From assembly GCF_016097555.1 (NCBI RefSeq), contig NC_054713.1:13471473-13535472 (forward strand): a stretch of 64,000 bases of DNA. Reading direction: 5' to 3'. A program made the position numbers and the translations under genes. The notes under the pieces were generated by a model. The model ran no database searches and had not been told where the DNA came from. It was given only the letters and a program-made list of their open reading frames with translations. Each line of letters begins with the position of its first letter. Position 1 is the stretch's first letter. This document shows positions 14,514 to 37,854 of this stretch, one piece after another. The stretch is from Gigantopelta aegis. Taxonomy: Eukaryota; Mollusca; Gastropoda; Neomphalida; Peltospiridae.

Positions 14514-14884
14514 TCGTTTAGAAATATATATATATATATATATATATCACTATGCCATTGTTGTAGATACTCATCTTTTTGTCTTAATTGACCTGATTGA
14601 CAATTAATTTATCTTTAAAATACCCATGGGACGAACGTTTTTGTTCGGCGTCTAGACGTGTCCAGTTTTCAGGGTTTGTTAATCCCCTGCCTTAATATCT
14701 ATGTATGTAATACATACGTATCGTGGCAAGTCTGTGCTTGAAGAGTTCTCTGATGGAAGCACGCCACAAATTACCCACACCCACAACCACATCCACATCC
14801 ACACCCATGCAAGTCTGTGTGTGGGCGATCAGGAATCATTTGATATTCAGTGGCACACGTTTGAAATACTTCTTCATTTTACAG

Positions 14885-14968
14885 ATTGCCACAAAGGATC
14901 GAAATACGATGCTAAAGCTAAAAAGTGTATCTGCCAGTCCGGGTATTTAGGTAGAACTTGTAGCAATA
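14885..14968 (+). CDS. Gene A, EGF-like exon
   Basis: An 84-base exon between a TTTTACAG acceptor and an A|GTAAGT donor, phase 1 at both ends. It encodes a four-cysteine unit starting CHKGSKYDAKAKKCIC and ending GYLGRTC. The spacing C-x12-C-x-C-x8-C fits the C-terminal half of an EGF-like fold. The arm 2 copy (36138-36221) differs by a single base (Leu to Phe). By its company (signal-peptide exon near arm 2, ShKT-like exons downstream) the protein should be secreted. No signal-peptide exon for gene A was found upstream of 14885. Confidence 0.7.
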
Positions 14969-15239
14969 GTAAGTATGTTTTGAGTTTTACTAAAACTTTC
15001 ACAAGCATAATGACTTGTGAATGACACAAATACATCCATATATACATCCATACACCCACACACGCACGCACGCACGCACGCACACACGCACCTACACACA
15101 CACACTGATAAAATAAGAAGTCAGACGTCCCATAACTCACCAACGTGTGTTTAAGAAAATACACATATAGTAGCAGAAGGGTGATCAGCTTGATTCTTGA
15201 AATTACATACCTATTACATTGCAAATTTGTTTTCGAAAA

Positions 15240-15895
15240 TTATTTACATCTTTAATTAACAATAGACTTCCGGTATTATCTGATCAACCAAAAATATCAG
15301 TCTGGTTTTCGACAAGTTTACTTCACAATTGATAAGATATATATTTTTATTATATATTTTAATAGAATCACTAACAGGAGCTACGAAAATGTGTACTGTG
15401 TTTTTATTGATTTAAAGAAAGTGTTTGATTCTGTGTGACGTATAGGTTTATGGCAAAATCATTAGGTTGTAATAATATTTAATATGTATGATGGTATCGA
15501 ATCTAGAATTGTACATCATGACAATAAATTTTAATATTTTCCATCTATTATTGTCTACGGCAAGGCGCAAATGAGTCATTTTTTCATGTTTGTTACATTT
15601 AAATGACTTAGAACATTTTAGTTATAGAAAAAAAGCAAATATATTGAATCGGTAACAAAGACACTTGATAATGATCTTAATGTATATCTTAGGTTATTTG
15701 TGTTGCCATAATTATGCTGATGATACTGTACTACTAGCTGAAACAGCAGATGATCTTCATAAAATACATAGCTTTGAATTATACTGCGAAACATGGAATC
15801 TTAACAGCCAAGACCAAAACTGTGTACTTTCAAGAAGTAATTTTGAAACAACGTATAACAATAAAGAACTAGGAATTGTAACTGATGTTAAATGA
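15240..15895 (+). mobile_element. LINE reverse-transcriptase remnant in arm 1
   Basis: Fragments of a non-LTR reverse transcriptase: YENVYCVFIDLKKVFDSV-like sequence near 15390-15435, then HNYADDTVLLAETADDLH at about 15706-15760 (the YADD active-site box) and DVK at the end. The frame is interrupted several times, so the copy is dead. The same remnant lies in arm 2 at 34985-35720, so this insertion predates the duplication. Confidence 0.75.
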
Positions 15896-15989
15896 CATGG
15901 GCTTATCTGAGTATTTTCATTTGATTTCAGCTTATTTTTGTGCTTATATTCAATTAATAATACCACCATGTATTATTGTCCAAATATTC

Positions 15990-16065
15990 TGTGTGTGTGT
16001 GTTTGTATGTGTGTGTGTGTGTATGCGTTTGTATATATGTGTGTGTGTGTGTGTGTGTGTGTGTG
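15990..16065. repeat. (GT)n microsatellite
   Basis: Interrupted GT repeat in the intron before the first ShKT-like exon. The arm 2 counterpart is at about 34027-34063 as (CA)n. Confidence 0.85.
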
Positions 16066-16174
16066 TATTTTACACATATAACATCACCTATTATACAAAT
16101 ACCATTAAATAGTGACGTTGTTCGTTGTTGTTTGGTTGTAGGTTTTGTTTTTTTGTTGTTGTTGTTTTTTACAG

Positions 16175-16297
16175 CATGCAAACACCGTTGGAACAGTGAT
16201 GCAACATACCTATGGGAGAATGCGTGTGTTCGTATGAACAACGTGTGGGAAAACTGCCAACAGTCATGTTCCGGATGCAGAGGAGGAAACACACGAC
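16175..16297 (+). CDS. Gene A, ShKT-like exon 1
   Basis: The exon follows TTTTTTACAG and is open in phase 1, joining gene A's EGF-like exon in frame. It encodes CKHRWNSDATYLWENAC, then VRMNNVWENC and QQSCSGC. The closing C-x9-C-x3-C-x2-C is the ShKT signature, with five cysteines instead of the usual six. The donor used is probably the GTGAGA at 16298, 12 bases beyond the place that aligns with the arm 2 donor; it keeps phase 1 and adds four residues. Against arm 2 (33734-33844), 21 of 34 residues differ while all cysteines and the VW pair stay. ShKT domains occur in secreted proteases, channel-blocking peptides and many mollusc secreted proteins, so the function is not assigned. Confidence 0.65.
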
Positions 16298-35720: not shown

Positions 35721-35799
35721 CAAGAATCAAGCTGATCACCCTTCTGCTTCTATATGTGTATTTTCTTACACACCCGTTGGTGAGTTATGGGACGTCTGA

Positions 35800-36003
35800 C
35801 TTACTTTACAAATGAAAGATCAACTTATCTAAACAAATATTACTACAACAGACCTAACACTTTCAAATTTTATCAGCTATTTAATTTTACAAAGATATCA
35901 ACCACAAATTGTCTCATGCCGTTGCTGGAGCTCGAACCTGTGGCACCGAATCGCCTACAGCTTGCAGACTTGCCACGATACGTGCTAAGCTATCGAGTTA
36001 TCA
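35800..36003 (-). repeat. SINE found only in arm 2
   Basis: Minus strand: ATAGCTTAGCACGTATCGTG, then CAGGTTCGAGCTCCAGCAAC, then GGCATGAGACAATTTGTGG. Arm 1 lacks this 200-base insert between GTCAGACGTC and the GT repeat. It is the same third SINE family as 25190 and 29515. Confidence 0.6.
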
Positions 36004-36137
36004 ATGTATGTGTGTGTGTGTGTGTGTGTGATTGTGTGTGTGTGTGTGGAGAGGGGGAATGTATATATGGATGTATTTGTGTCATTCACAAGTCATTATG
36101 CTTGTGAAAGTTTTAGTAAAACTCAAAACATACTTAC

Positions 36138-36221
36138 TATTGCTACAAGTTCTACCAAAATACCCGGACTGGCAGATACACTTTTTAGCTTTAGCATCGT
36201 ATTTCGATCCTTTGTGGCAAT
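36138..36221 (-). CDS. Gene B, EGF-like exon
   Basis: An 84-base exon, acceptor ATTTTACAG, donor A|GTAAGT, phase 1-1. CHKGSKYDAKAKKCIC, then QSGYFGRTC. It is nearly identical to gene A (one base). The signal-peptide exon at 43335-43395 ends with one spare base (G), which completes GAT (Asp) with this exon, so the two join in frame. Conservation here, next to hypervariable ShKT-like exons, is a built-in control. Confidence 0.7.
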
Positions 36222-36409
36222 CTGTAAAATGAAGAGGTATTTCAAACGTGCGCCACTGAACATCAAATGATTCCTGATCGCCCACACACAGACTTGCGTG
36301 GGTGCGGATGTAGTTGTGGGTGTGGGTAGTTTGTGGCGTGCTTCCATGAGACAACTGTTTCAAGCACAGACTTGCTACGATACGTATGTATTACATACAT
36401 AGATATTAA

Positions 36410-37633
36410 CCCTTTAACGCCCAGTGTACTCTAATGAGTGCATACTTTATAAACACAAACACTATTTGCAAAAATGAAATATTTCTAATGAATAAGTACT
36501 GAGAATTTCCATATAGGTCTAATATCCTCAAAATTAGTACAGTTTACTTGAATGATTAAACTTATATTTGAACAGAGCCAAACATTTAAATGTGTACTCG
36601 TTTAGTACAATAGGCACCTACGGCAACATGTTAATCTTGTAGCAATCTAATTAAAATTAGCTCCACTATTACATGTGGATCTAACACCAGCCAGTTGGAG
36701 CTCATGTCCACCAATCAAAACCTCACTTGCAGAATCATGCCAGTGATTTAAAAATAATTTGAAAACATTCCGAATTATCCTGAGGGTATACGACATGTTT
36801 CGTGTGAATTACGAATGCCTTAAAATATGTTTTATTTTATAAAATAAATAATTTGTAATGTAAAAATGAAGACTGATTTAGTTAGGTTTTTTTTTTTTAT
36901 AAATAAATAAATAAATAATTTTTAATGTAAAATTGAAGACTGATAACCCACCCCGTATGTATTGGTATGGTTCGCTGTACTGCGGCCACTAAAATAGACT
37001 CGCCCGATATTTTTAGAATTTGTATGCTCCCAAATAACGTTATAAAAGGCGAAGTGTGATTGGTCAATATTTAAATTATTATTTACAGACGAAATGTTAC
37101 CTGGACATTGGGGACTACGCAGTGTTGTTAGCAATCCGATTAAAATTAGTTCTACTGGTCTAAATAAGGCATTCGTAATTCACATGAAACATATTGTATA
37201 CCCTTTCGGAATGTTTTCAAATTATTTTTAAATCACTGGCAGGATTCTGCAAGTAAGGTTTTGATTGGTGGACATGAGCTCCAACTGGCTGGTGTTAGAT
37301 CCACATGTAATAGTGGAGCTAATTTTAATTAGATTGATCTTCTAGTCTTTTCTCTGCACTTATAGATCTGCTACATTGTTCTAATGGTGTGTTAAATGAA
37401 TTTGATATGTTTTTTCTCTCATTGCAACAAATATTTTTTAAATCTGATGTAATAATTACTTTTGTACTCATACGAGTACAGCCCGATGTACTCATATGAG
37501 TACATTTAAAAACAAATAAAAAATAAATATTTATTTCAAATATACTCAAACGTGTTTTTAAATGATGCTATGTTTATTCACAAACCAATATTTTATCTGA
37601 ATTCATGCTAGTTTTGTCACGGGCATTAAAGGG
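36410..37633. mobile_element. piggyBac-like non-autonomous element
   Basis: Ends CCCTTTAACGCCC and GGGCATTAAAGGG are inverted repeats flanked by TTAA (36406-36409 and 37634-37637). Arm 1 has the empty site with one TTAA at 14692-14695. The element is 1,224 bp; 703 of these are a later MULE-like MITE plus its target duplication. The interior has GTACTCATATGAGTAC palindromes and no transposase. The TTAA target with CCCTTT ends is diagnostic of the piggyBac superfamily. Confidence 0.85.
36643..37336. mobile_element. MULE-like MITE, copy A
   Basis: Terminal repeats of about 110 bases start CAATCTAATTAAAATTAG and end in the complement. Flanked by ATCTTGTAG and ATCTTCTAG, a 9-bp duplication with one change. 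The interior carries AATAACGTTATAAAAGGCG. Copies B and C are at 55785 and 51815. Long terminal repeats and 9-bp duplications fit the Mutator-like superfamily. Confidence 0.8.
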
Positions 37634-37854
37634 TTAAGGCAGGAGATTAGCAAACCCTGAAAACTGGACAAGAGGATTTTTGTTTGTTTTTTAAATCATT
37701 GCGTATAGATCCATATGTCTACTCTGCTATAGCATTTTCCATTAATTTATCGTATACATTTTTTTTTGGTAGCTTTCACGTTAGTTTTCTTCAAAATATC
37801 TAAATATGATTGCCAGAATAATATTCCGGCTTGTTGCACAAAAGCAGTGCGAGT

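Follow-up and report, generated by a model that had tools for sequence, protein, structure and literature searches.

Why should two exons of a duplicated gene differ between the copies several times more than the introns beside them? This question is raised by a locus of the gastropod Gigantopelta aegis (assembly GCF_016097555.1, contig NC_054713.1), which lies in a stretch of 64,000 nucleotides analysed here as a whole (positions 13,471,473 to 13,535,472, forward strand; in the following "the window", with positions counted from its first letter). The original prediction, made from the sequence alone, held that two ShKT-like exons inside an inverted gene duplication had diverged in a way that neutral drift cannot produce. 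According to our analysis the duplication is real, divergence of mostly replacement type is confined to the two exons, and their cysteines are retained. The best explanation, to which we give a probability of about 0.7, is a secreted, cysteine-rich, target-binding protein that was diversified by selection after the inverted duplication.

The arms of the duplication were delimited within the window by blastn self-comparison and MAFFT. Both contain insertions, and they are separated by a spacer of about 2.9 kb. The outer edge of arm B pairs with position 14658 of arm A across a TTAA-flanked insertion in B. Common to both arms is the exon order EGF-like, cysteine-rich 1, cysteine-rich 2 and a short 3' exon. 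Each of these exons is in phase 1 and has AG/GT borders as read from the sequence. The gene model built on these, including splicing and translation of the exons, is a predicted one. The elements on which the argument depends are:

14658..26000 (approximate), forward strand: arm A, outer edge read
28864..37661 (approximate), reverse strand: arm B
16175..16297, forward strand: cysteine-rich exon 1, arm A, the end placed at a GT as putative donor
33734..33844, reverse strand: cysteine-rich exon 1, arm B, donor CAG/GTAAGA
23660..23779, forward strand: cysteine-rich exon 2, arm A, used for the divergence count and the change points
29921..30040, reverse strand: cysteine-rich exon 2, arm B, paired with arm A exon 2

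Divergence of exons and introns

Direct recounting gave 33 differences in 104 bases for exon 1 (A 16175-16278, forward, against B 33741-33844, reverse), 26 in 120 for exon 2 (A 23660-23779, forward, against B 29921-30040, reverse) and a single one in 84 for the EGF-like exon, identical to the numbers in the original prediction. There is no length difference between the arms within the aligned exons 1 and 2. After masking of simple repeats, the introns show 175 differences in 2916 aligned columns, that is 6.0% (4.9–7.2% in the five blocks; 207 of 3140 columns before masking), consistent with the roughly 3–6% proposed before. Per base, divergence is thus 5.3-fold (exon 1) and 3.7-fold (exon 2) above the introns. 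Fisher tests against the introns yield p = 8e-15 for exon 1 and p = 2e-8 for exon 2, the latter with 26 of 118 columns, as the automatic alignment had gapped the last codon. This intron yardstick omits the simple-repeat columns and the sequence that separates the five aligned blocks, which is AT-rich or inserted. It also omits A 22436-23150, before exon 2, which is poorly aligned (171 of 671 columns, with insertions) and in whose well-aligned parts arms A and B differ at 37 of 760 and 8 of 189 columns.

The change points of exon 2 lie within the exon, at 23693-23774, with support intervals of 23623-23702 on the left and 23768-23804 on the right. This holds for an alignment truncated at 23846; if it is kept at full length, misaligned columns at an insertion widen the block to 23625-23860. 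The borders are less sharp for exon 1, where the best block is 16110-16306 (left support 16103-16183, right 16290-16313). It reaches into a misaligned T-rich stretch upstream and the start of an AT microsatellite downstream, with intron indels nearby.

Cysteine retention and codon changes

All ten cysteine codons of the two exons are identical between the arms, as the original prediction had stated, and 39 of the 63 other residues differ. Given that 40 of the 73 codons are changed, the chance of ten unchanged cysteine codons is 1.5e-4. When 57 changes were placed at random in 20000 simulations, no run remained free of stops with all cysteines kept. Therefore, an unconstrained hot spot or decay fails to account for the two exons. 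At most one purely synonymous codon pair, the number observed, had a simulated chance of 0.0016 given no stop. Stops interrupt nine of the ten alternative frames of these exons in at least one arm, and only reverse frame 2 of exon 1 is open in both. The cysteine framework appears strongly constrained while replacement is fast elsewhere in both exons; this is poorly explained by drift, by decay or by a plain mutation hot spot.

The changes fall on the three codon positions as 22/22/13. Path counting after Nei and Gojobori attributes 6.9 steps to synonymous and 50.1 to replacement change, corresponding to a synonymous divergence (dS) of 0.20, a replacement divergence (dN) of 0.35, about six times the intron divergence, and a ratio of 1.7. 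The original prediction had reported one synonymous codon change. This number stands for purely synonymous pairs (1 of 73), but it omits silent steps that are hidden because many codons carry two or three changes; counted by hand, 2 to 7 further synonymous steps are concealed in such multi-hit codons.

Codons and introns were also fitted jointly by maximum likelihood, with 2800 intron columns and 160 differences left after the exon exclusions had been widened. Exons evolving at the intron rate with a dN/dS ratio (omega) of 1 were rejected against selection (twice the log-likelihood difference, 94.9). A selection-only model, in which the silent rate is tied to the introns, gave an omega of 7.45 and was acceptable compared with the full model (p = 0.14). 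A rate-only model, in which omega is fixed at 1 and the exons are sixfold faster or older, was worse (p = 0.017; bootstrap p = 0.019 at the transition bias of the introns). Omega was 3.0 in the full model and, with both parameters free, 3.5 when the cysteine codons were excluded. The dN/dS comparison proposed in the original prediction, run here on one pair of copies, hence yields a ratio above 1, the significance of which depends on the transition bias. The two exons combine a replacement rate above the intron rate with retained scaffold cysteines, as is characteristic of a positively selected hypervariable exon gene.

Protein family

The spacing of the five cysteines is C-x15-C-x9-C-x3-C-x2-C in exon 1 and C-x7-C-x15-C-x6-C-x3-C in exon 2. 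Exon 1 fits the ShKT spacing, with C2 replaced by an acidic residue in both arms, and exon 2 fits it poorly. The ShKT label of the original prediction therefore comes down to cysteine spacing in exon 1, one cysteine short, each module having five instead of six. ShKT bonds are given as C1-C6, C2-C4 and C3-C5 (PMC6409789). The odd cysteine of each module could, as a conjecture, bond the other module.

Homology searches lent the label no support. For Pfam ShK (PF01549) no match was listed at E values up to 10 with the four exon peptides and two joined chains, in a search whose filters drop most weak matches. PDB sequence searches returned only matches with E above 0.3, none named as an ShK or EGF protein. 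AlphaFold2, given alignments of two sequences, produced models of low confidence (pLDDT 63.3 and 55.7), and with these Foldseek gave 0 and 9 matches in the PDB, the lowest E value being 4.5 and none notable. No CAP domain was detected in three frames of 1-14657 (forward) or 37662-52000 (reverse), with X at stops; over the arms the same type of scan missed the weak EGF-like exon. Rfam gave no match at gathering thresholds. In scans of viral and prokaryote contigs 6 and 8 stretches fitted a pattern, and none was confirmed as a relative.

The conserved exon upstream of the two modules was delimited as follows:

14885..14968, forward strand: EGF-like half-domain exon, arm A, AG/GT bounds read, phase 1-1, four cysteines
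36138..36221, reverse strand: EGF-like half-domain exon, arm B, paired with the arm A copy

Its peptides differ by one residue between the arms. The best EGF-like profile score was obtained for Pfam PF23106 with the arm B peptide, at 19.2 bits and below the cut-off of 24.3. The exon has four cysteines instead of six and only the later part of the profile is matched; the first EGF-like cysteines may sit in a further upstream exon.

State of the two copies

In arm B the frame stays open across the exons seen and closes with 12 codons and a stop. Arm A reads GA at the position of B's exon 1 donor, and a further GT follows 12 bases on, in the same phase. In the last exon of arm A a length difference from B shifts the frame, which continues beyond an AATAAA. 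The features concerned, including a partial third copy, are:

25459..25610, forward strand: putative last exon of arm A, from AG acceptor and frame
29368..29405, reverse strand: putative last coding exon of arm B, 12 codons and then a stop
53407..54643, forward strand: third partial copy, the intron before exon 2, from self-comparison and three-way alignment

A long terminal repeat (LTR) retrotransposon interrupts the third copy close to the exon 2 acceptor. Compared with this copy, arm A has 24 and arm B 11 private intron changes in 760 columns, and 5 and 3, respectively, in 189 columns.

At 16680-16723, and at 33338-33381 on the reverse strand, a 14-codon frame that ends in a stop follows a TTGTTACAG acceptor, in the right phase after exon 1 and with 1 of 43 bases different between the arms. 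In each arm it may serve as an alternative last exon (16680-16723 / 33381-33338). If it is used, exons 1 and 2 need not share one transcript. After exon 2, arm A carries a 23-base insertion (23780-23802), lacking in arm B, that copies part of exon 2 with the donor motif, so that there are two possible donors. A further exon considered near 16767-16834 (AG ... GTAAGT) was dropped by eye, as its open frame ends in a phase that does not suit exon 2 and its divergence looks intron-like.

Selection and its alternatives

Several results weigh against selection as the explanation. The dS of 0.20 compares with 0.06 in the introns, which makes the within-codon signal modest; likewise, the full likelihood model puts the exon silent rate at 2.4 times that of the introns, a non-significant excess (p = 0.14). 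Without transition bias the rate-only model survives (bootstrap p = 0.10) and the selection-only model becomes itself marginal (bootstrap p = 0.047), and among the values tried the exon data fit zero transition bias slightly better than the intron value. Transitions and transversions stand at 19:40 in the exons versus 94:81 in the introns (p = 0.004). This richness in transversions fits favoured replacements, but a different mutation process could also cause it. As a single pair of copies was compared, lineage or site tests are impossible. No signal peptide, signal exon or start codon was found in the window, and profile searches of the exon peptides, the joined chains and the frames scanned matched no secreted-toxin family, ShKT and CAP included. 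Finally, the lost donor, the shifted last frame and the extra private changes are signs of decay, and arm A may now be declining. Codons alone do not settle selection versus rate. The case for selection is carried mainly by the intron yardstick and the unchanged cysteines, and the exclusion of neutral drift claimed in the original prediction holds in this form: the exons are far above their own introns, rich in replacements and fixed in their cysteines, whereas the codon-only ratio (1.7 or 3.0) loses significance when transition bias is left out.

The same silent-rate estimates, and the survival of the rate-only model without transition bias, would be expected if the two exons simply exceeded the introns in age or mutability. 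On this reading, either conversion homogenised the introns while the exons escaped or the local mutation rate is raised, and purifying selection acts on cysteines and stops alone. A precedent is the mature-toxin exon of Conus, in which both rates are raised and an error-prone polymerase has been proposed (PMC3862624). We consider this unlikely here, as, at the transition bias of the introns, the data reject a model that fixes omega at 1 and leaves the exon rate free. The exon flanks speak with two voices. Raised intron bins, all of them small, lie before (3 of 17) and after (4 of 22) exon 1, beside indels and the AT repeat, and 26-50 bases before exon 2 (4 of 25), and could be left by conversion and selection. 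Against this, the 25 bases directly before exon 2 show no difference (0 of 25) and the first two bins after it one (1 of 29); the third (7 of 29) is a misaligned insertion edge. The gradient of intron divergence towards the exons that conversion with selection should leave is therefore mixed in outcome. That an exon-confined mutational process acts in addition to selection and also raises synonymous change, as the point estimate of 2.4 times the intron rate might suggest, seems very unlikely to us.

It is also quite unlikely that gene conversion or exon shuffling brought the exons into the arms from separate source genes that had diverged beforehand; for conversion, the original prediction had itself named this as a refutation. 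The divergence blocks are exon-sized, that of exon 1 may overrun the exon, and duplicated ShKT modules have been described in a gastropod (PMC6409789). However, the tracts must then have ended at or inside the exons twice, the change points of exon 2 being internal, and purely synonymous codons are nearly lacking, exon lengths are equal and cysteine codons match. Moreover, no third copy of the exon peptides was found in the window, either by cysteine pattern or by tblastn with E below 0.05. The GA at the donor position, the shifted last frame and the excess of intron changes specific to arm A would agree with one arm being under relaxed constraint or decaying as a pseudogene. Decay cannot exceed the intron rate, yet both exons do so several-fold, with the cysteines kept and no stop gained. 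This explanation is thus contradicted by the rates and extremely improbable, though it may still describe the latest history of arm A.

If diversifying selection is the right explanation, the ancestral gene would have encoded a secreted multi-module protein with an EGF-like half-domain and two five-cysteine modules. This gene would have been duplicated head-on inside one locus, after which selection would have driven the two modules apart at non-cysteine residues. Little change would have occurred meanwhile in the introns, the EGF-like exon or the disulphide framework. Such a protein would most probably bind a moving target, such as an ion channel or receptor of prey or attacker, a microbe or a mating partner, and both copies may have been retained since their different surfaces bind different targets. 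Secretion, target binding and an arena of conflict are presumed here, and the analysis does not distinguish between venom, defence and gamete recognition.

Mobile elements and neighbouring features

A decayed fragment of a non-LTR reverse transcriptase was seen by eye in the intron after the EGF-like exon, at about 15380-15910 and 34980-35550. Being present in both arms, this insertion seems older than the duplication. Arm B contains a Tc1/mariner-like element (about 30960-32400) with matching terminal repeats and an uninterrupted stretch of 355 codons, which scores 63.8 bits for DDE_3 and 41.8 bits for HTH_Tnp_Tc3_2. Another arm B insertion, at about 36405-37635, is absent from the matching arm A site and has the ends TTAACCCTTTAA.../...TTAAAGGGTTAA; it is presumably piggyBac-like. 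Nested within it is a repeat that recurs at 52160-52369 and 55778-56375. The LTR retrotransposon at 54649-64000 has a TG...CA repeat (about 54649-55108), a primer-binding-like TGGCGCCCAACG and a reverse transcriptase (104 bits); its second LTR was not found within the window. Upstream of arm B and on the same strand a BIR (inhibitor of apoptosis) domain was detected at about 46054-46240 (reverse strand, 42.2 bits). A tandem direct duplication (40160-40982 and 41651-42463) is 81.6% alike and has no match to the arms there. The window also has short interspersed repeats, which suggest a mollusc.

Comparison with known systems

Conotoxin genes of Conus resemble this locus in combining conserved introns with a fast exon. 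Within a superfamily their introns are conserved, with 84-99% identity between paralogues in the examples given, and the mature-peptide exon evolves fastest (PMC3862624); the mature peptides are under strong positive selection (PMC9363990). Conotoxins differ in having signal and pro exons, whereas the locus here has an EGF-like exon and two modules, with no signal exon found. In Conus exon 3 the synonymous rate rises with the replacement rate (PMC3862624); at the locus here the excess of the silent rate over the introns is non-significant. Differences are likewise restricted to exons in snake three-finger toxins and PLA2 (accelerated exon evolution, ASSET), whose intron segments are over 85% alike (PMC2711939). 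These families are unrelated to the locus here and change by switched segments, in contrast to the scattered single substitutions seen by eye between our arms. The abalone sperm proteins lysin and sp18 are a different, helical kind of protein; Metz is said to have found in 1998 that replacement exceeds intron substitution in abalone sperm proteins. Positive selection after duplication is described for lysin and sp18 (PMC9022041).

The nearest architecture among those compared here is that of the molluscan CAP-ShK type II proteins. These are secreted and mix EGF-like modules with ShKT modules that are hard to recognise and of which some have lost cysteines (PMC6409789). No CAP or astacin domain was found at the locus here, in scans too insensitive to exclude a CAP exon. 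The cysteine missing in exon 1 is C2; in the Cumia cases it is Cys1, or Cys1 and Cys6 (PMC6409789). Salivary proteins with multiple ShKT-like modules are known from Vexillum (PMC9363990).

Conclusion

The divergence pattern itself is already known from conotoxins, snake toxins and abalone sperm proteins, so that the locus is a good new case and not a new kind. Its whole-codon synonymous counts illustrate that such counts overstate dN/dS at high divergence. Being fairly recent, with introns that can be aligned and one conserved exon beside two hypervariable ones, the inverted duplicate provides an internal neutral yardstick that is absent from studies based on complementary DNA. Should an exon-confined mutational process prove true after all, the locus, as a recent inverted pair that aligns well, would offer a clean natural experiment on the targeted mutator put forward for conotoxin exons. 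For Gigantopelta aegis, the locus nominates a probable arms-race protein.

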